The notes under the pieces were generated by a model. It ran no database searches, was not told where the DNA came from, and saw nothing but the letters and a program-made list of their open reading frames with translations. Positions 1,540 to 60,821 of a DNA stretch of 64,000 nucleotides are shown piece after piece. Made by a program: the position numbers and the translations under genes. How positions within the stretch are numbered: the first letter of the stretch is position 1; every line of letters starts with the position of its first letter. Source of the DNA: Antedon mediterranea (Eukaryota > Echinodermata > Crinoidea > Comatulida > Antedonidae); NCBI RefSeq assembly GCF_964355755.1, contig NC_092671.1, positions 16,029,501-16,093,500 on the forward strand, written 5' to 3'.

Positions 1540-16075
<14,536 letters not shown>

Positions 16076-33105: not shown

Positions 33106-43240
<10,135 letters not shown>

Positions 43241-50253: not shown

Positions 50254-53079
50254 TCATGATCCACATGGAAGAGAAGATAAATGACCTAAAGACCATGAAG
50301 CATCAAAAGAATCCGTATCCATATCTATAGAGTTTTCACTGCCGGAGAAACTAGAAGTTGTGCTTATTTGTTGTAGAATATTATCTTGTGTCAAGCTATT
50401 AGTCATGACATCATCTGTGACATTGCTGCCACAGTTTAGAGTACTGGTGAACATAGTGTTGGCAGCATTGCTATTTGTCAAAACAGTGTCTTCCCTATCA
50501 AGATCCCATGATGGCTCCATCATACTATTATCATCAGCACTTACTGAGGTAGTTACGCTTAGGTCTCCAGCTTGCTCATCAGTACCCAGAAAATCCTCCT
50601 CACTTATGCTTATTTCTTGTAAGTGTGATGGCAATGGAGTCAGACTTTCTTTGGCACTCCACATTGCTTGATATTTTGGCAGTAGAGCGTCAAATCCTAA
50701 CTCTGGCAGCGGTACCGACTGACTTCTCTGACTTTGTCTAATGGTCAATGATATTGTTGCATCAGCATTTAGCAACTGTGGACCGACATTTGTTAACGAG
50801 AATTGGGTTGGGGGTCCTGAAAGCCTACGTTGTCTTCTCCAAGCAGCTTGATCAATACTTCTGTTGTTTAACAAACTAGATGCATGTGCAACACACGGGG
50901 ACACTTCAACTTTTAATGGATTTGGTGAAGGGGGAGGCATACTCTCAGATTCTGACTGATACAGTTGTATATTACTGGCATTTGTAAGCATACATGACAC
51001 TGGAGTGGCACTTCTACTGTTTCCAGGTGAAGTTAGTACCCCAGCACCAATTGTTGTCTTTGACACATAGGGTTGGTTCATCTTTTTCCTCGAGGATGCG
51101 GATACCCTACGATTTCTAACAGGACGGATGTTACTCTGTCCACCTCTCAAGGCATTCAATTCCTGCCTAGCTGTTTTAGGTACCTGTCTGGGTGAGTCTT
51201 GACACATCACCAGTTGAGAATTTTTTTCAGAAAGATCAAGTTTTACACCCATGGTTGGCTTAGGTTTAGGCATTGGCTTGGGACTTATAGGTAAGCCATT
51301 TTGAAACCCTGTGTTTGCAATTGGAGTAAAGCTGAAGACATTACCAGATTCCGAAGGTCCAGGTGATGATATAGTCTGAATAACATAATGTTGCCCATGA
51401 GTTGGTGTGTGTGGTTGGGATATGTAACCAGGACTTGATGGTACACTAGTACTACCAGACTGTGCAACAACTGGCAGTGTGTTATTGTGAATGTTGTAGA
51501 TGGTGCCGATATTGTTAGTAGGAACCTGAGATGTATTAATCAAAGTCAATGAGTTTGCATTGGCTGAAGAGGCCCGTGGAATGGTTGAGTTTAATACTTG
51601 AATAGATGGTGAAGAGCATGTATTTTGCCAGTCATGGATATTGCCATCACTCCGCAACACTAACATATCCTGGAGAATGGAGCCAGTACTGGAATCAGGT
51701 TTATTAGTGGTCTTCACACATAGTCTAGTTGACTGGTCTTCCTTTTGTAGTCCAATAAGCTTGAGTAAACTAGCTGAGCTTGAATTATCACTTACATTTA
51801 ATGCTTGTGTTTCTGGTTTAAGTGACTTGTTGTCGCTCGATATATGTAGCTCATTGACTGAAATAGACCTACTCTGAAGTTTGACCTGATTCTCATTCAC
51901 AGAACCACCAGCTACTGAAATAGATACTGGTATAGGACCAGAGGTAATTTTCTTTGGAACGCGGGACATCATTGGTGTAGATGTCATCGGTGTAGACTCA
52001 GGTGTGGATATGTTAGATGTCAACTTTGAAGTGGTGTTATTTAGCACAACATTGTGCATATTACTTGACTGCACAGGAAGTGACAAAACTCTTAGGCTCC
52101 TTTTACCAATACTTATGGTGGAAGCGTTTGGCATAGTAGAACATGAACCTCCTACAATACCAGTCTGACAATTTGATTTTGTTGTCACTACACGCTGTGG
52201 ACTATTTGTAGAAATACTGTTTGTAGCAACGATGGTTGGTGCCTTTTTGATAGAATCAATGGCTGGTGTCCCACTACTTTTAGGATCTTGCAAGATAGCT
52301 GCACTTGTGCTTGGTGTAATTAATAAGTATGTTTGATCATTCACTTGAAGTACAGGTGTCACAGGTGTTACAGGTGTTGTACACTGCCTGGGTTGAGTTC
52401 CTGTCATCTGAGATCCAGCCATCGGGCTGCTCATTAAACAGATCACCTGTCCTCCTCTCTGTTGAGACTCAGAGATTGGTGTCTTTGGCATCAGTGGCTT
52501 AAGTTTTCTTGTGTTTGGACTTTCTTTATGACTGATATTATTCTGGTTATTAGCTGTGCTACTACAGAACTTCTTTGGAGATGACAATAAGTTATCATGA
52601 TCAGTAGCAACATCACTGCCGCTAAAGCTTGAATCCGATCCTCTTGAATGTCCGCTGTCGCTATCTATTTTCAATTGATAATCACTGTATACCATTTCCA
52701 CCGATTCAACAGTTTTGGAGGAATCTACTTGCTTTGGTACTGTTGTTGAAGTACAACTTGACTGCTTATTGGCCTCAGATTGTTGTTTCTGTTTGTGCAT
52801 TTGACGACGTTGTATTGTCCTCTGAAGATGTAAGTTAGTTTCCTTGTGAGTCAAAGCACCAGTTCTAACTCGGTGAAGCAGCTGTTTTGATGGATGCTCA
52901 ACAAGAAGATTAAAAGCTGCTGCAGATTTTCCCTGTACGTTATTGGTACTGACAAGATGTTTGGCTAAATCGACGACTGAAGTAATTGCACATCCAATTC
53001 GTTTAGATGCCCATTCACAAACTACAATGTTGGCAGAATCATTTATTTGTTGATCAGCACCAAGAATAGAACCATGTAC
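50254..53079 (-). CDS. RFX7: RFX7 terminal exon
   Basis: 2,826 nt (941 codons plus stop) entered in phase 0 after an AG at 53081-53080. It starts [20 protein letters not shown]. The leucine-rich [14 protein letters not shown] and basic [15 protein letters not shown] stretches correspond to human RFX7 LQRKIQKKQQEQK. The rest is low-complexity Ser/Thr/Gln/Asn/Pro, likely disordered, with acidic serine-rich patches near the end ([15 protein letters not shown]) that could be activating. Confidence 0.93.
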   Translation of the reverse strand, partial: VHGSILGADQQINDSANIVVCEWASKRIGCAITSVVDLAKHLVSTNNVQGKSAAAFNLLVEHPSKQLLHRVRTGALTHKETNLHLQRTIQRRQMHKQKQQSEANKQSSCTSTTVPKQVDSSKTVESVEMVYSDYQLKIDSDSGHSRGSDSSFSGSDVATDHDNLLSSPKKFCSSTANNQNNISHKESPNTRKLKPLMPKTPISESQQRGGQVICLMSSPMAGSQMTGTQPRQCTTPVTPVTPVLQVNDQTYLLITPSTSAAILQDPKSSGTPAIDSIKKAPTIVATNSISTNSPQRVVTTKSNCQTGIVGGSCSTMPNASTISIGKRSLRVLSLPVQSSNMHNVVLNNTTSKLTSNISTPESTPMTSTPMMSRVPKKITSGPIPVSISVAGGSVNENQVKLQSRSISVNELHISSDNKSLKPETQALNVSDNSSSASLLKLIGLQKEDQSTRLCVKTTNKPDSSTGSILQDMLVLRSDGNIHDWQNTCSSPSIQVLNSTIPRASSANANSLTLINTSQVPTNNIGTIYNIHNNTLPVVAQSGSTSVPSSPGYISQPHTPTHGQHYVIQTISSPGPSESGNVFSFTPIANTGFQNGLPISPKPMPKPKPTMGVKLDLSEKNSQLVMCQDSPRQVPKTARQELNALRGGQSNIRPVRNRRVSASSRKKMNQPYVSKTTIGAGVLTSPGNSRSATPVSCMLTNASNIQLYQSESESMPPPSPNPLKVEVSPCVAHASSLLNNRSIDQAAWRRQRRLSGPPTQFSLTNVGPQLLNADATISLTIRQSQRSQSVPLPELGFDALLPKYQAMWSAKESLTPLPSHLQEISISEEDFLGTDEQAGDLSVTTSVSADDNSMMEPSWDLDREDTVLTNSNAANTMFTSTLNCGSNVTDDVMTNSLTQDNILQQISTTSSFSGSENSIDMDTDSFDASWSLGHLSSLPCGS

Positions 53080-56000
53080 CTGATGAAAACAAAGTACAAT
53101 ATATTTAATTATCTTTTAACATTCATACCAAATTATAGTTATTTCTTGATGTTTAGGTTGAATAATAATAAGTGTATGTTTGTGCGTGTTGTGAGGTGGT
53201 TTCCCGAATGATCGTAAAATCAAAACGGTACTTGGTATGACCAACTAGCGTTCTTGTCACCAACTAGTCATCCATTCATAGATAATAAGTGTGTGTTGTG
53301 ATATAGATTACTAGAATGACAAACAAACAAGAACAATACAAATACTACATATATATTTTTTAAATTTCCTTACCGACTTCTTTGTACGTATTAAATCAAG
53401 GTTTGGCAAAGACGGTGGACGGACCTCTGTTTTTTTATTGATGCCACTGTAGCAATACGTAGAGATTAGTTAAAGATTAATAACAATAAGATTAAATAAG
53501 ATTATATTAGAATAACTGCTTATAATAAATATTACTATTTGATCAAGGCAATCAAACAACAGGAGACTGAGCTCGCCTTGCCAAGATAGGAACTCATAAC
53601 AGTCCTTTGATATTATGTCTGGCTGCAACAAATACCAACTGTTAGGGGTGTGGATCTGATCGTGTAGCCGCCACAGATAAACCTTTTGCCTTGATTTAAG
53701 TAACTGATTAAGTACTTCAATTTAGATAGTATCTAATTAAATGACAGATCATCCACTGGGAATTACACAAATGACAGATAATTATTGAATAAAAATAAAG
53801 GATATTTTGAATTTCCTCTGGTTCCAAGACGTCGTACCTTGATGTTGGGAAAAACCTGTTTAACATGTTTTCCAAAGTCTGCAGCACTTAGAATTTGATA
53901 GTTGGACATTTCACAGAAGTTCCTGAAAGAAGACAACAAAAGTTGATAGATATAAGTATAAATGAATATACTGTATCCACACAATACTGACATAGCCTAA
54001 CCAAAATCTGTTATATAAATCCAACCATGACCCTACTCTATATCATCGTTAATTAGATAGTATTATTAATAGTCATATTTTTTTCTCAATTAGTTTTCCC
54101 TTTTATATAAAATTATTTTAATGTTGAGATAGAGATAAAATATAGAAGACTAGAATTATAAAAATTTGACTTATGTAATGTACAGTACTACTACCAGCTA
54201 ATATATTGATATTACCACTAATGAAAATTGATTACCCAAGTAATAGTATTTTTACAATAAAACATTATTAAACGCAATACATACATAAATAATGTAATCT
54301 AAAGAAAAGGAAGGAAGTCTACCTACTGTACATGCAAATTTATGTATGAGCTGTTTTCATTTTGTTTGTAATAAACCAACTATGTTGGTGAATAAAATTA
54401 TATTATTATACTGTAGGTAATAATTATTAGTGGAATATAGAATTAATAAAGTTCAATGTGCAATACAGTCAACTCTCCCAATACCAGACACTAACCTAAT
54501 ATGTCTGGTTTTCCGCAAATCTGGTATTTGGAATGTGTTTGTACATAATGGTAAAAAAGAATTTGACACCTTTTGGACCTCAAGAAAAGTCTGTTTTGGG
54601 AGAGTTTCAGGTTTCTAGAGAGTACGATATTGAGAGATTCGAGTGTATAGCGCAAATGCTTGGCGCCTATAAGCGCTGACCAATTAACAGAAAAAAAAAT
54701 AGAATAAAGAATAAAATACTGTTTAATGTTCATAAACAGATTTATATTGCTTACGTAATTGGTCTGGAGATTTTATATTCTATTTTATTCATGCTAAAAT
54801 TATGTCTATAATATATTTTCAGAATGTTCACTTGAAGTCCCATTCCCTACGTATTTTAGATCTAATTTAAAGACCCCTTCACTGCAATTTTGGACGTTTT
54901 TTTGGAAAATAATACATATATATCACTTTAAAAACATTAAACCATGTAATTCCTTGTCTTAAATGTACATTTTATGGTAAATTATGATAAAAAGTGAGAA
55001 ACAATGCACTACCCAAGTAGCTCGTGGCGATCGACCTCTCGTGGACGGTCTTAGACCTAGCCTAGCTAGGCTTAGTTTTGTAGGCCTAGCTGGTAAACAT
55101 CGGTAACGTACGAACATCATACGCTAGCTATATACCTAGCCTGACGTTGTATAGTTGCTGCATTAATTGTCTTTCTATTTTTGCCAGACTCCGTTGATAC
55201 AAATTGGGGAAAACCCGGTATTTTCGCTGAAAAGTTAGGAGTCTTCCATTTGTTTTGGCCTCACGATCGATCGAAAAGTGGGCGAATTACAGGTGAAAAA
55301 CAAACATATCAATCCGCGCGCAATGCATTTTGGGATTTATAGCGGGCCGCTATAATTATTAGAATCGACTTATTTTTCACATTTTTAACCGTTTAAAGAC
55401 GAAAAAAGTTATCGCAATAGGACTATATAGTATTATTTTTACATTAAATATAGTTTGTGATCTTAAATTAGATCTAAAAAACGTAGGGAAGGGGGCTTTA
55501 AGGTCACAAACTACATTTAATGTAAAAATAAATACTATATGGTCCTATTGAGATAACTTTTTTCGTCTTTGAATGGTTAAAAAATGTGAAAAATAAGGTG
55601 ATTCTAATCATTTTACTGGCCAGTTATAAATCCCATGCATTGCGCGCGGAATGATATTTCGATCGAACGTAAGGCGAAAACAAATAGAAGACTCCTAACT
55701 TTTCAGCGAAAATACTAGGTTTCCCCCAATTTGTATCAACAGAGTCTGGCAAAAACAGAAATATAATTAATGCAGCAACTATATGGTAGGCCTATAGCTA
55801 GCGTACATTATTTGTATGTTACCCATCTCTACCAGCTACAGTAGGCCTACAAAATTAAGCCTAGCTAAGCTACAGTAGGCCTAAAGACGGCCAACGAGAG
55901 GACATTCACTGCGAGCTACTTAGGTAGTGCATTGTTTCTCTCTTTTTATTATAATTTACCATAAAACGTACATTTAAGACAAGGAAAGACCTGGTTTAAT

Positions 56001-59000
56001 GTTTTTAAAGTAATATAATATATATGCATTTTTTTGCAAAAACGTCACAAATTTTAGGGAATGGATCTTGAACAAATGAAATAAACTATGGAAATAGGAT
56101 AATGAATCTACAGTACAGTATTGTATACCGTTTGAACTTTAAAGTAATCTGTTAATTTATAAAAACAAAAGAAATTTAAACAAATATAGGAAAAAAAGTC
56201 CTAAAGAAACTGAAAGTAGTCTAGAACTAGTCAGCAGGAACATATCAAATATAAAGGATGTTGAAATTGAATTGTCAAATTATTAGATCAGACACTTGAA
56301 GTATGTGGCTTATGTTCTTAATTTGAAAAGTATTCTGCATGATTGTAGTAAACTGAACATTTAACGCAATCAATTAACTTTAATCAGCACAAATACACTT
56401 CAGCACAAATACACTGTATCCAATACAGTGTTCTCTCGAAGCAGGTTTTGTCAGCAAGATTTGCCGGTTTAAATTTGCTCCAACCGGTATTAAAAATGTT
56501 GTAAGAAAATCATACATTCCATAAACGCATCTATTTGTATTAGTCACAGATTAGGCCTAGCCATTAAAAAAAACCAACCGAAGGCTACAGTATATTTTGT
56601 CAATTGGATAGGGAAAGTACATTATTTGACTTCTTTGTATTTAGTACAGTAGTATCATTATCAATAATTCGGTATTTCGCTTAATTTGCCAGACTTGATT
56701 TGATGGTGGGAGAACACTGCAGTAATATACTAGCTAAGGCCTAGATTTCCGCAGTACAGATAAGTGTGATTGTAATTTTTTTTTGGTTTAGCGTGTAAAT
56801 TAAAATTTTTTGTGTCTGTATTCTAAAAAAAAAAAATATAATCTGGAAAAATTAAAATGGTATTCAACGATACAATCGGGAACTTCTTTTTTGTTTTACG
56901 TGGGTTCATTCCACTTTTATTTCCATACAGTACATTTCTCTTAACATACAGTATGTTATGAACTTGGGCATTTGGTCTTAACATCTACTGTAGCATTCAA
57001 ATATTTATTATGATTATCACATGGCAAAAATTCATACACAGCCACATGGCAATAACCAATAATCATTATTAAATTATAATCACGGAAAAAGATGTGACAA
57101 TTACAAAAGCGATCCATAATAAAAAAGTGTGTTAATCTGATGAGCTCTGATTATGTAACTGTGAACACTATCACCTATTGTTCTTTGTACAAATATATCA
57201 AACGGTACGCCTATTATGTCAATAGATTTGTCCGCTTATACAAAACAGTAATACATATTACAGTATGATTGTGTTGTTGTTCTACTTGTATTATTAAATC
57301 ATTTATTTCTTGATATCTTGACTATACAATTATGAATGACAGATACACTATCAGTTACATTAAAATAAACAATATATACATAATTTACATTTATTGGCAA
57401 ACCTCTGAATTTTTCAAGGTATGATTACTTTACAATACAAGGCATGATATTAACATACAGCAATTTGTGTTGTGATAATCTTAATTAATGTGACCTTCAC
57501 ATTCATACCCCATGAATTAATTGCAGTGTCAATTAGTCTAATTAATTAACAAGGTTTATTAAAGGCTTCACTTTTGCACTTTCCCAATATATTATGACCT
57601 GTCAAATTATGTATTAAAAATTGCATATCGTAGTGGTAATGCAGTATGTTGTGAACACATGTAGAGTTCTTTATTGCATGTGATTTGGTATGGAAGATGC
57701 GAAAACCTATTAAAATTCTCGAATTATAGGCCTACTACTGTCAAATGTTCAGTACATGCCTAGGATATATGTCTGGTACCTAAATGTAAATATCATGCTT
57801 AATATCTGTTGTCACAAGGTAGACAAGGCAAGCCGAGGCAGACAATTAATAAAATCCAGGCGAAAGAAAAAGATTAAAAACAATATACAGTACTTGTAAA
57901 ATGACGAGTAGATTTTGAAACAAAATGAAAGATCCTTATTTTCCTTCTTTTTTTTGGAAGAGGCGGAGGGATAGGGAGGAGAAGAGGGGGTTTTCATGCC
58001 ACAACAACCATTATCTGGATCTCAGCTTCAAATATAGTTTTATTGAATTTGACTACATTGATTATTTTTTTATTCAAGATACAGTAATAAAAATATATCC
58101 ATTTCCTTATTAAAATTATATATCAAAATGCCGTTAAATTGCCATGGAGACCTGTAATTCAAGGTCAACAAAGCTATTTATAGATTTCCAATTTGTGGTG
58201 GATCAGTTGGCAATAAAATTTTATAATACAATTTAGTAATTTTAAAAAATATATTGCTGTACCATATATCAACTGAAAATTTGAAGACTTTGATTGTATC
58301 TTTAGATCAATCTAGTAGTATACAGTAGTAAATGAAGATAGTTTGCATTGGTATCAAGTTCGACGAAGAAGTTTACACAGCAAACGTGTAATTAAAAACA
58401 TTTTGGAAATAAAAAGATATCATCCATCTTTGTCGTCATGGATGTTACTCAGTCCTTCGTTTAAAAGTAAAAAGTTTAGCTTTTCTGTTCGCAGCGTATC
58501 AAAATTATTTTAAATTCCGTCGTAAAGTCTCCACGTAACAAAAAGGAATGATGGTTCCCACATGATGGCATGATTTTGGACTAGTCCATTATGGTCCAGG
58601 AGTGTTCTTTTTGTATCTAAGCCCTCCCTTTGGAGAGCACGGGCTATTGTCGGTTTATCCAGGTAAGCTAGGCACAAAATAGACTGCAACATTTTCAGGA
58701 TAGCAATTACTGGCAAAGTTTTCGATTGAATGCAGACAGGGGAATCCCCTTTCTTGGTGCCTCTGAGATTTAAGGAGGATGATTAGTTGCTCTCCTTGAA
58801 GGTGTTAAGGAGCTTGCTAAGAACTGGTTATAGAAATGATAGCGATGATCAATTTGTAATAGGCACACATCAAAGTTTAGTTCCTTTTTATATGTGAAAT
58901 TAGTGTAATGTTTCGCCAATGTTAAAAAAACAGCAAAAAAATTATTGTGAATGATTATGATTTCAAGGACACAATGCTATTTTAGTAGTGTACAAACATA

Positions 59001-60821
59001 TTGTACTTGGCAGAGGATATTTGCCAAGATAGCCAAGGATGTTGGTAAAGCTCAGGAAATATTAACTGGAAGTTGAACTACAGTATAAAAAAAGCAACAT
59101 TTACTGTAAATAACATAATTATCAGTTTTAAACCACAGATATATTGTTTATAACAAGGTGATGATGACGACAATGATGATGAAGACAATGATGATGAAGA
59201 CAATGATGATAATGATGACAACAATATGACAATGATGATGACGACAATGATGAAGATGACAATGATGATGGCGATGACGACAATGATGATGATGACGACA
59301 ATGATAATGAAGATATCATTAGCACGATTCAGAAATACCAAAAATCGAAATTAACACAACACTAATAACCACTAAAACTCATATCATGGATGCACTCTGT
59401 TTGACTACGACAAGTTTGTAAAATTAAATATTGTTTCAAATTTAATTAGGTTAATAAAATCTTTTTTTAAAAAAACAAGATAAGCAGAAAGTATCATTTT
59501 TTTCTTGAATATTTAGGTAAAAAAATATAAATGTATTTGTCACATGAACATTCTATTTAGTTTTTCAGTCAAATTATCTCGCATACAATTTGGTTTCAAG
59601 CCAAGACTTAGCAAAACACTACGAGGGTGACTCATCATGTATTATTTACGTCATCTTGCTCCTGTTTGATTATAATAATTTTAAAGTAGTTAAAAATAAA
59701 ACTAGTATCAAGAAGGATTTTACTGGGTACCTAAATATATTTTAAGGCCCTATTATTAAATATCTATCTAATACTGAACATTTTTAAACCTCACAATACT
59801 GTTGTAGTCTGTGGCCGCATACTGTTGAATGGGGCCACAAGTTTAGAACTAACAGGACTAGTGGATAACTACAGTAGTTAAAAATTTCTTTAAACCACTT
59901 TCTCGCAAAAAAACCCATATAAGAAATTAGAAATTTTCATGTTCTACAAAAATAAAAACCATTAACAAACAATAGTCCTGTTATTGTCGATAGTTACCTA
60001 TAATCATCATAAATGTCTTGTTTTGATAGTGAAGTTTCAACACTTTCCTCAAGGTGGGTGCGTATCCAGTTTAAACCACGCCAATGTGTAGGGCGTGACG
60101 ACAACACTTGACTTGAACTGCAAGAATAAAAGAATGATATTATAAAATAAATGTGCAGGAAAAATACATTTTTACTGGTCATCCACTCCTTTTACTGGTC
60201 CCAGAATATGGGCCTAGATATAATAGGAAGGCCTTTCATTTATAAAATACTGTTTGTACATGAACATTAACTTGAAAAAAAAAAACAAACCTAAAAAATG
60301 AGGTACAGAAAATCGATCTTGTTTACCTTAGTATAGGTGTGAAATATTTTGTAAGGAAATCATGTCAACGTGAATTGAGTAAAATTATTGATATTTTGTC
60401 GGTTTTACTGAAATTTTAACTGTCCAAGCAGACTTGTTATTTGACTACTTAACTGGTCCGCTACATATTTAACTGGCGATTGGTATGCGGACCAGTGTTA
60501 TTACGCTGCTAATGCTTGGTTCGCACTAGAGACGCAACACAAGGACGTAACGCAATGTAAGTGAGTTAACCAATCACAAGCGGTGGATTATTCAAACTGT
60601 TGCTTGTCATTGGCCAACATGCTTGCATTGCATCTAGTGGGAACCTTATTTAAGTCATAAAACAAAGTTTGTATTCCTTTTACAAATTGCTGGATGCCAA
60701 TACAGTAAACTGATTCTACTTACGATTTGTCTTTATTTGGTTTTGTGCATAGAGAAGATCCTGTAGGTAGTTTGAGGTAGAGTAGTAACTTCTCTAAGTC
60801 ATTGAACTTGCGAGTACTTGC
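50254..60821 (-). CDS. RFX7: RFX7-type winged-helix transcription factor, 5' end not found
   Basis: Sequence-specific nuclear factor binding X-box-type sites. Exons visible 5' to 3': 60821-60724, 60117-59998, 53922-53806, 53458-53374, 53079-50254 (stop TGA at 50256-50254). Together they encode 1,081 residues. The first visible exon ([18 protein letters not shown]) matches human RFX7 EKFTDLEKLYLYLKLPSG. The RFX DNA-binding domain is split over three exons: [20 protein letters not shown], then [18 protein letters not shown] and [10 protein letters not shown], then [10 protein letters not shown] following helical segment ([21 protein letters not shown]) also matches human RFX7. The last exon is a long Ser/Thr/Pro-rich region with short conserved islands ([18 protein letters not shown]). 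The intron between 53806 and 53458 is AT-AC type. The upstream exon(s) with the start codon lie beyond 60.8 kb or outside the window. RFX5 is the closest alternative, but the long C-terminus favours RFX7. Confidence 0.92.
53459..53805 (-). other. U12-type AT-AC intron in the RFX domain of RFX7
   Basis: On the minus strand the upstream exon ends GGAAATTCAAA and the intron starts ATATCCTTTA, the U12 5' splice-site consensus. It ends TCTTTAACTAATCTCTAC. TCTTTAAC is one change from the U12 branch consensus TCCTTAAC and lies about 10 nt from the terminal AC. Joining after AA and before GTATTGCTACAGTGGC restores [11 protein letters not shown] in frame. No GT-AG alternative found here restores that invariant motif. 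Confidence 0.88.
54838..56072. repeat. Giant inverted repeat (foldback) of about 1.2 kb
   Basis: Segments on the left reappear inverted on the right in mirror order: AACATTAAACCATGTAATTC (54936) against GGTTTAATGTTTTTAAAG (about 56000), AACAATGCACTACC against GGTAGTGCATTGTT, and TTTCGCTGAAAAGTTAGGAG (about 55222) against CTCCTAACTTTTCAGCGAAA (about 55690). Also GCGCGCAATGCATTTTGGGA against CCCATGCATTGCGCGCGG, and TAGTTTGTGATCTTA against AAGGTCACAAACTA near the centre at about 55480. Arms are about 580 bp and diverged by substitutions and small indels. Confidence 0.93.
56422..56722. mobile_element. Small TIR element with CAGTGTTCTC termini
   Basis: ACAGTGTTCTCTCG at the left end is the inverse of GGGAGAACACTG at the right end. 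About 300 bp. The ends resemble Tc1/mariner-pogo-type termini, but a clean TA duplication is not visible on both sides. Confidence 0.55.
58510..58720 (-). pseudogene. Possible transposase helix-turn-helix fragment
   Basis: A minus-strand frame of 68 codons includes [20 protein letters not shown], a pattern of the helix-turn-helix seen in Tc1-like and related transposases. There is no catalytic domain and no splice signal linking it to RFX7. The family assignment is a guess from the motif. Confidence 0.3.
59157..59320. repeat. GAT/GAC-rich microsatellite
   Basis: Imperfect array of GATGATGACGACAATGATGA-type units (period about 12-18 over a 3-bp base). Open frames on the minus strand (Ser-rich or Ile/Val-rich) are artefacts of it. 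Confidence 0.93.
60512..60652. mobile_element. MITE family B copy in an RFX7 intron
   Basis: GCTTGGTTCGCACTAGAG at the left and CATCTAGTGGGAACC at the right. The internal ACACAAGGACGTAACGCAAT, CTTGCATTGC and the CACAAGC / GCTTGT inversion match other family B members. It lies between the 60821-60724 and 60117-59998 RFX7 exons. Confidence 0.8.

Follow-up and report, generated by a model that had tools for sequence, protein, structure and literature searches.

The window (the whole 64,000-nucleotide stretch of DNA analysed here) very probably contains, within the DNA-binding domain of an RFX5/7-type gene, a phase-2 AT-AC intron of the U12 type, the substrate of the minor spliceosome (Table 1). 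We reach this assignment because the splice signals, the protein restored through the junction and the presence of U11, U12, U4atac and U6atac genes in the genome all point to it. The same evidence bears out the core of a preliminary description made from the letters alone, which had read the region as a U12-dependent AT-AC intron in an RFX DNA-binding domain and had given the coordinates (53805-53459, minus strand), the AT and AC termini and the 347-nt length correctly.

Table 1. Positions of the intron, its splice signals, the host exons and related features; a slash marks a splice junction.
Feature	Position	Strand	Details
AT-AC intron	53805-53459	minus	347 nt, phase 2, AA/G of Lys in SKYCYSG
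U12-type 5' splice site ATATCCTTT	53797..53805	minus	9/9 to consensus
U12-type branch-site-like ATCTTTAAC	53469..53477	minus	7/9 to TTCCTTRAC, composite scan
3' splice site CTCTAC/G	53459..53460	minus	fits YAC end
Exon A, first part of DNA-binding domain	59998..60117	minus	acceptor GCAG/T, donor AG/GTAACT
Exon B, ends in split Lys codon	53806..53922	minus	acceptor TTTCAG/G; aligned to human RFX5, RFX1
Exon C, DNA-binding domain end and PSLPNL	53374..53458	minus	donor TCG/GTAAGG
Exon D, long C-terminal exon to TGA stop	50254..53079	minus	941 aa
MITE-like dispersed element	53542..53695 (intron positions 111-264)	minus	154 bp, 10-bp perfect inverted ends ATCAAGGCAA/TTGCCTTGAT
Other RFX-domain loci	C6; C5; C7b (26.31 Mb); C7a (54-56 kb); ARID2-like gene on C2		

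Read on the minus strand, the intron runs from 53805 ATATCCTTTATT ... TTAATCTTTAACTAATCTCTAC 53459 and lies in the context GGA AAT TCA AA/ATATCCTTTATT ... TTAATCTTTAACTAATCTCTAC/G TAT TGC TAC AGT GGC. The consensus used for the 5' splice site was ATATCCTT (PMC2831892), followed by T as the ninth base. Position +5 of the intron is C (ATATC). At the other end, the branch-like ATCTTTAAC, which is found at 53477-53469 as had been described, retains the TTAAC core exactly, has 2 mismatches in 9 nucleotides and is situated 10 nt from the terminal AC. We take the second A of this core, 53470, to be the likely branch A.

Joining 53806 to 53458 gives GNSKYCYSGI in frame, so that splicing restores SKYCYSG as had been noted. 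The motif had also been called invariant, which holds for human RFX5, where it is common to both proteins, but not for the other RFX-domain loci of this genome, four of the five having SKYHYYG and the ARID2-like gene neither form. The strong constraint claimed for the boundaries is likewise correct in part: protein homology fixes them, but only to within a 5-nt slide, since five neighbouring placements encode an identical protein, and among these AT-AC alone has known intron termini. Compared to human RFX5 (8zjr; E 1.1e-28) the spliced protein shows no gap at the junction and one gap further upstream, and it aligns ungapped through the junction with RFX1 (1dp7; E 2.4e-11). Its score against the RFX domain profile PF02257 was 100.3 bits (cut-off 27). 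The translation that retains the intron still reached 88.9 bits, and the Pfam score therefore separates the two poorly; with the intron retained, the domain match reaches only profile position 70, against 78 for the spliced form, and the frame runs from NSK through 13 residues to a stop (ORF 53763-53996).

To place the junction among its alternatives, we made a profile of four paralogues found in this genome (C5, C6, C7a and C7b) and used it to score the 1865 junctions that keep the frame and contain no stop, taking donors from 53862-53683 and exon starts as far as 53414. Six had GT-AG ends, 19 had AT-AC ends including 53805-53459, and none had GC-AG ends. The 53805-53459 junction obtained 67.1 bits and was joint third, tied with its slid placements (TA-CG, AT-GT, TC-TA and CC-AT), and it was the only one in the top 25 with AT-AC, GT-AG or GC-AG ends; its score was reached by none of the 6 GT-AG and 18 other AT-AC junctions. 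Two junctions without known intron ends scored slightly higher (67.9 bits, CT-TT; 67.4 bits, CT-GT), probably because the profile, being derived from SKYHYYG paralogues, expects SKYHYYG. These scores also bear on the reading that what is spliced out is a U2-type intron with GT-AG ends at other positions, the AT-AC ends being coincidental. Such an intron could draw on the six GT-AG junctions, and exon B does hold a GT donor in good context (AAG/GTACGA); the AG at 53447, flagged earlier as a false acceptor, is present and serves the two best-scoring of the six. However, three of these junctions place intron-coded residues at YCYS and its surroundings (58.8, 58.7 and 58.3 bits against 67.1), the best of them, with the AG at 53447, ranking only 215; the other three delete a 10-residue stretch (33.2 bits and below), and the alignments with RFX5 and RFX1 cross the AT-AC junction ungapped, making a displaced GT-AG intron very unlikely. 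That the AT-AC intron is instead removed by the major (U2) spliceosome, like the U2-type AT-AC introns known in sodium channel genes, is extremely improbable, since those introns have G at +5 (both points from PMC2831892) where this one has C, and since this intron has ATATCCTTT in its entirety as well as a branch-like site containing the TTAAC core. An annotation that admits only GT-AG introns would break the RFX5/7-type gene inside its DNA-binding domain.

The splice signals were also compared with chance expectation. ATATCCTTT occurs once on both strands of the 64-kb window, close to the mean of 1.5 in shuffled sequences, and the 9-mer alone is therefore unremarkable. Similarly, a scan for the branch motif allowing 2 mismatches returned 346 matches against 398 expected and is useless by itself. 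A composite scan of both strands for ATATCCTTT, followed by a branch-like site and then YAC within 3 kb, gave 3 combinations, all from one 5' site, the shortest being the 53805-53459 intron. When the surrounding sequence was modelled by its dinucleotides, the probability was about 6e-5 for the 9-mer within the 5-nt slide and 3.5e-4 for an AC end with a branch-like site at the right spacing, and the joint probability of the 9-mer at the protein-fixed junction, the AC end and the spaced branch-like site was about 2e-8. It is the place of the signals at a protein-fixed junction, and not the frequency of the words, that sets this intron apart from chance.

Minor-spliceosome snRNA genes were sought with covariance models, at the Rfam cut-offs, in all 18 contigs (354 Mb) of the genome. 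Matches above the cut-off were obtained for U12 (one, 125.7 bits), U6atac (two, 136.6 and 33.7 bits), U11 (two, 88.6 and 82.9 bits) and U4atac (one, 97.6 bits). The assembly was also searched for COX1, as a route to the mitochondrial code, and yielded no match. The U6atac of this genome contains GAAAGGAG, its U12 contains GUAAGGAAAA and its U11 starts with AAAAAGGGCUUUU, which we take to be the stretches that pair with the intron sites. The calculated pairing was equalled or bettered by 8.7% (U11), 10.3% (U6atac) and 23.7% (U12) of local windows of the same length; pairing energies were therefore left out of the evidence, the pairing being present but non-discriminating in an AT-rich background. 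We infer that the 53805-53459 intron is removed by the minor spliceosome. The U11/U12 di-snRNP would recognise ATATCCTTT and ATCTTTAAC, U11 would give way to U6atac at the 5' splice site, and release of the intron as a lariat would join exon B to exon C; recognition by U11/U12, exchange for U6atac and lariat release are established steps of minor splicing. If the intron were kept, translation would stop after NSK and 13 further residues, and the protein would lack the final portion of the DNA-binding domain and all that follows it. The minor-spliceosome control attributed earlier to this gene can be retained as a predicted requirement only, not as regulation. U6atac abundance has been proposed as a switch for human minor-intron genes (PMC3728624); should the dependence be regulatory here too, an RFX factor would be tied to control of the U6atac type.

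The host gene was modelled by reading, as exons A-D, and its 5' end lies outside the model. Joined, the four exons are open for 1048 codons to the TGA, and both introns flanking the AT-AC intron are GT-AG (GTAACT...TTTCAG and GTAAGG...CATCAG). The PSLPNL that exon C encodes after the DNA-binding domain is a PxLPxL-type motif. ANKRA2 reportedly recognises motifs of this type and also RFX7, to judge by titles in the references of PMC11344851. In a tree of DNA-binding domains with eight rows, among them the window protein, human RFX5, RFX1 and the ARID2-like protein, and with no named RFX7, RFX4 or RFX6 row, the window protein grouped with human RFX5 at 100/100, the sole starred fork of five; the ARID2-like branch was very long. 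The window domain and that of human RFX5 are 57% identical in 74 columns; for RFX1, C5, C6, C7a and C7b the identity was 36-41%, and for the ARID2-like protein 31%. As far as HMMER's filters allow, exon D (941 aa) matched nothing in Pfam at E values up to 1, the B, C and D (BCD) domains included; a piece of C7b matched BCD_RFX at 122.6 bits as a positive case for detection. RFX5 and RFX7 possess the DNA-binding domain only, according to PMC2533330 and PMC2873420, and a Pfam-free exon D is therefore in keeping with the RFX5/7 type. Judged by its sequence, the gene is of the RFX5/7 type, that is, RFX5, RFX7 or a single forebear of both. The earlier name RFX7 consequently holds for the group, given the grouping with human RFX5, but not for RFX7 specifically, since the tree has no RFX7 row.

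A separate observation concerns PF03288 (Pox_D5; cut-off 21.4), which was matched at 23.6-25.7 bits by the RFX pieces of exons A and B (53806-60117, minus strand) in three protein versions, and at 21.1 bits, just below the cut-off, by the ARID2-like gene. We take these matches as a distant winged-helix resemblance.

A genome search with PF02257, which may miss weak matches, yielded nine; sorted by reading, they represent five loci besides the window gene. C6 is RFX1-3-like, with 89% identity to human RFX1. C7a and C7b we take to be RFX4/6-like by their motifs, the BCD_RFX match also being used; the tree leaves their placement unsettled. Both C7a and C7b have a phase-2 intron at the identical nucleotide of the same Lys codon, and in both it is a U2-like GT-AG intron. 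In C7b it reads TCCAA/GTAAGAAACA...TTTAATTTAG/GTATCATTATTAT (178 nt, 6/9 mismatches to RTATCCTTT) and in C7a TCAAA/GTGAGTCCAT...AATTATTTAG/GTATCATTACTAT (117 nt, 7/9 mismatches), and the best branch-like 9-mer in the last 45 nt of these two introns has 4 mismatches. An intron at the shared Lys site is thus present in two of the five other loci, and C5, C6 and the ARID2-like gene have none; in C6, SKYHYYG is continuous in one frame, which leaves no intron at the Lys, the sole point for which C6 enters this comparison of introns. A further intron, in phase 0 after FGK, is common to C7a, C7b and C5.

Several other features of these loci were recorded. By eye, C6 has an apparent GC-AG intron that precedes the shared Lys site by four codons, GGTACAAG/GCAAGTTAA ... 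CCCAACAG/AGGC; it reads AAG/GCAAGT ... AACAG/A, in phase 2 within the Arg of GTRG. In the C7a gene, a 69-bp unit that contains the coding-exon end HLEPACAATFGK and its GTAATA donor is present in about 13 tandem copies (3.2 + 10) at about 53.94-54.85 kb of C7, so that one 5' splice site recurs many times ahead of the following exon. In the C7b gene, downstream of the DNA-binding domain, coding pieces are separated by a long simple repeat of the GATGATGGT type, seen by eye at about 26.3128-26.3137 Mb of C7.

A single ancestral site is likely because two RFX4/6-like genes have U2-like introns at the same nucleotide and in the same phase. From this comparison of sequences we favour, with some confidence, one ancestral intron site that would have been kept as U12-type in RFX5/7, changed to U2-type in the RFX4/6-like branch and lost elsewhere. 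The site is probably older than the RFX5/7-type gene, and we infer that the change of type went from U12 to U2. In PMC2831892, loss is described as commoner than conversion, U12 to U2 as the likelier direction of conversion, and AT-AC introns as probably becoming GT-AG before converting; PMC10639083 treats near-exclusive minor-to-major conversion as an assumption with limited data behind it. As for age, the three RFX groups have been suggested to predate the split of choanoflagellates and animals in PMC2873420, where the choanoflagellate RFX5-7-like member was too weak for its tree.

The alternative, separate gains that placed a U12 intron in RFX5/7 and U2-like introns in C7a and C7b at one and the same nucleotide, is less likely. 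It agrees with the absence of the intron from C5, C6 and the ARID2-like gene, three of the five further loci, and the A/G context resembles a common insertion context. By our own estimate, chance coincidence of the sites would amount to a few per cent under uniform placement. Also weighing against shared ancestry are the one U2-to-U12 conversion recorded for Drosophila and the lower frequency of conversion among AT-AC than among GT-AG introns (PMC2831892). What speaks against parallel gain is the identity of both nucleotide and phase, together with the second shared intron, that after FGK, whose presence in C7a, C7b and C5 indicates that old introns survive in the RFX family. A more far-reaching version of shared ancestry seems unlikely: the minor intron would predate the split of the RFX groups and be U12-type throughout RFX5/7 and U2-type in the RFX4/6-like branch, and limiting U6atac would then govern the expression of one of these branches but not of the other.

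The intron also contains a dispersed element that looks like a MITE. Parts of intron positions 118-306 have at least 39 other scored matches across the genome, with 79-95% identity, and the element includes neither splice site, nor does it reach the branch-like site. We considered it as the possible creator of the intron and rejected it, since its ends (intron positions 111 and 264) lie away from both splice sites. Elsewhere in the window, the ORF at 39520-39978 of the plus strand carries a carboxyl transferase domain (PF01039, 2.1e-9) and probably belongs, as an exon, to a carboxylase gene, and an open frame of 455 aa at 7252-8619 of the minus strand carries a WW domain (PF00397, 4.6e-12).

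U12-type AT-AC introns are catalogued in U12DB and IAOD, and those of matrilin and sodium channel genes are examples. Our search, which covered the texts of papers, found no report of a U12-type or AT-AC intron in RFX5 or RFX7; PMC8394865 was set aside as such a report, 'rfx' and 'AT-AC intron' occurring there in two unrelated references. Intron phase bias and terminal dinucleotides are treated in PMC7367187. The intron described here is like the known U12-type AT-AC introns in its termini, its 5' splice site, its branch-like site and the spacing of that site, and its non-0 phase, and it differs from them in its host gene, which is of the RFX5/7 type; it is thus a further case of a known type. 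The gene, in turn, resembles RFX5 and RFX7 transcription factors in SKYCYSG, in the PxLPxL-type motif after the domain and in its long, Pfam-free last exon. What is new here is the sharing of a U12 site with U2-like introns in two paralogues, and a well-delimited site shared in this way between ancient paralogues would be useful for dating the conversion of intron type. Conversion of U12 to U2 introns at one position was proposed by Burge et al. (via PMC2831892; also PMC10639083), and the present introns likewise share codon position and phase; those cases lie between orthologues, whereas here ancient paralogues in one genome are compared and the direction of change is a presumed one.
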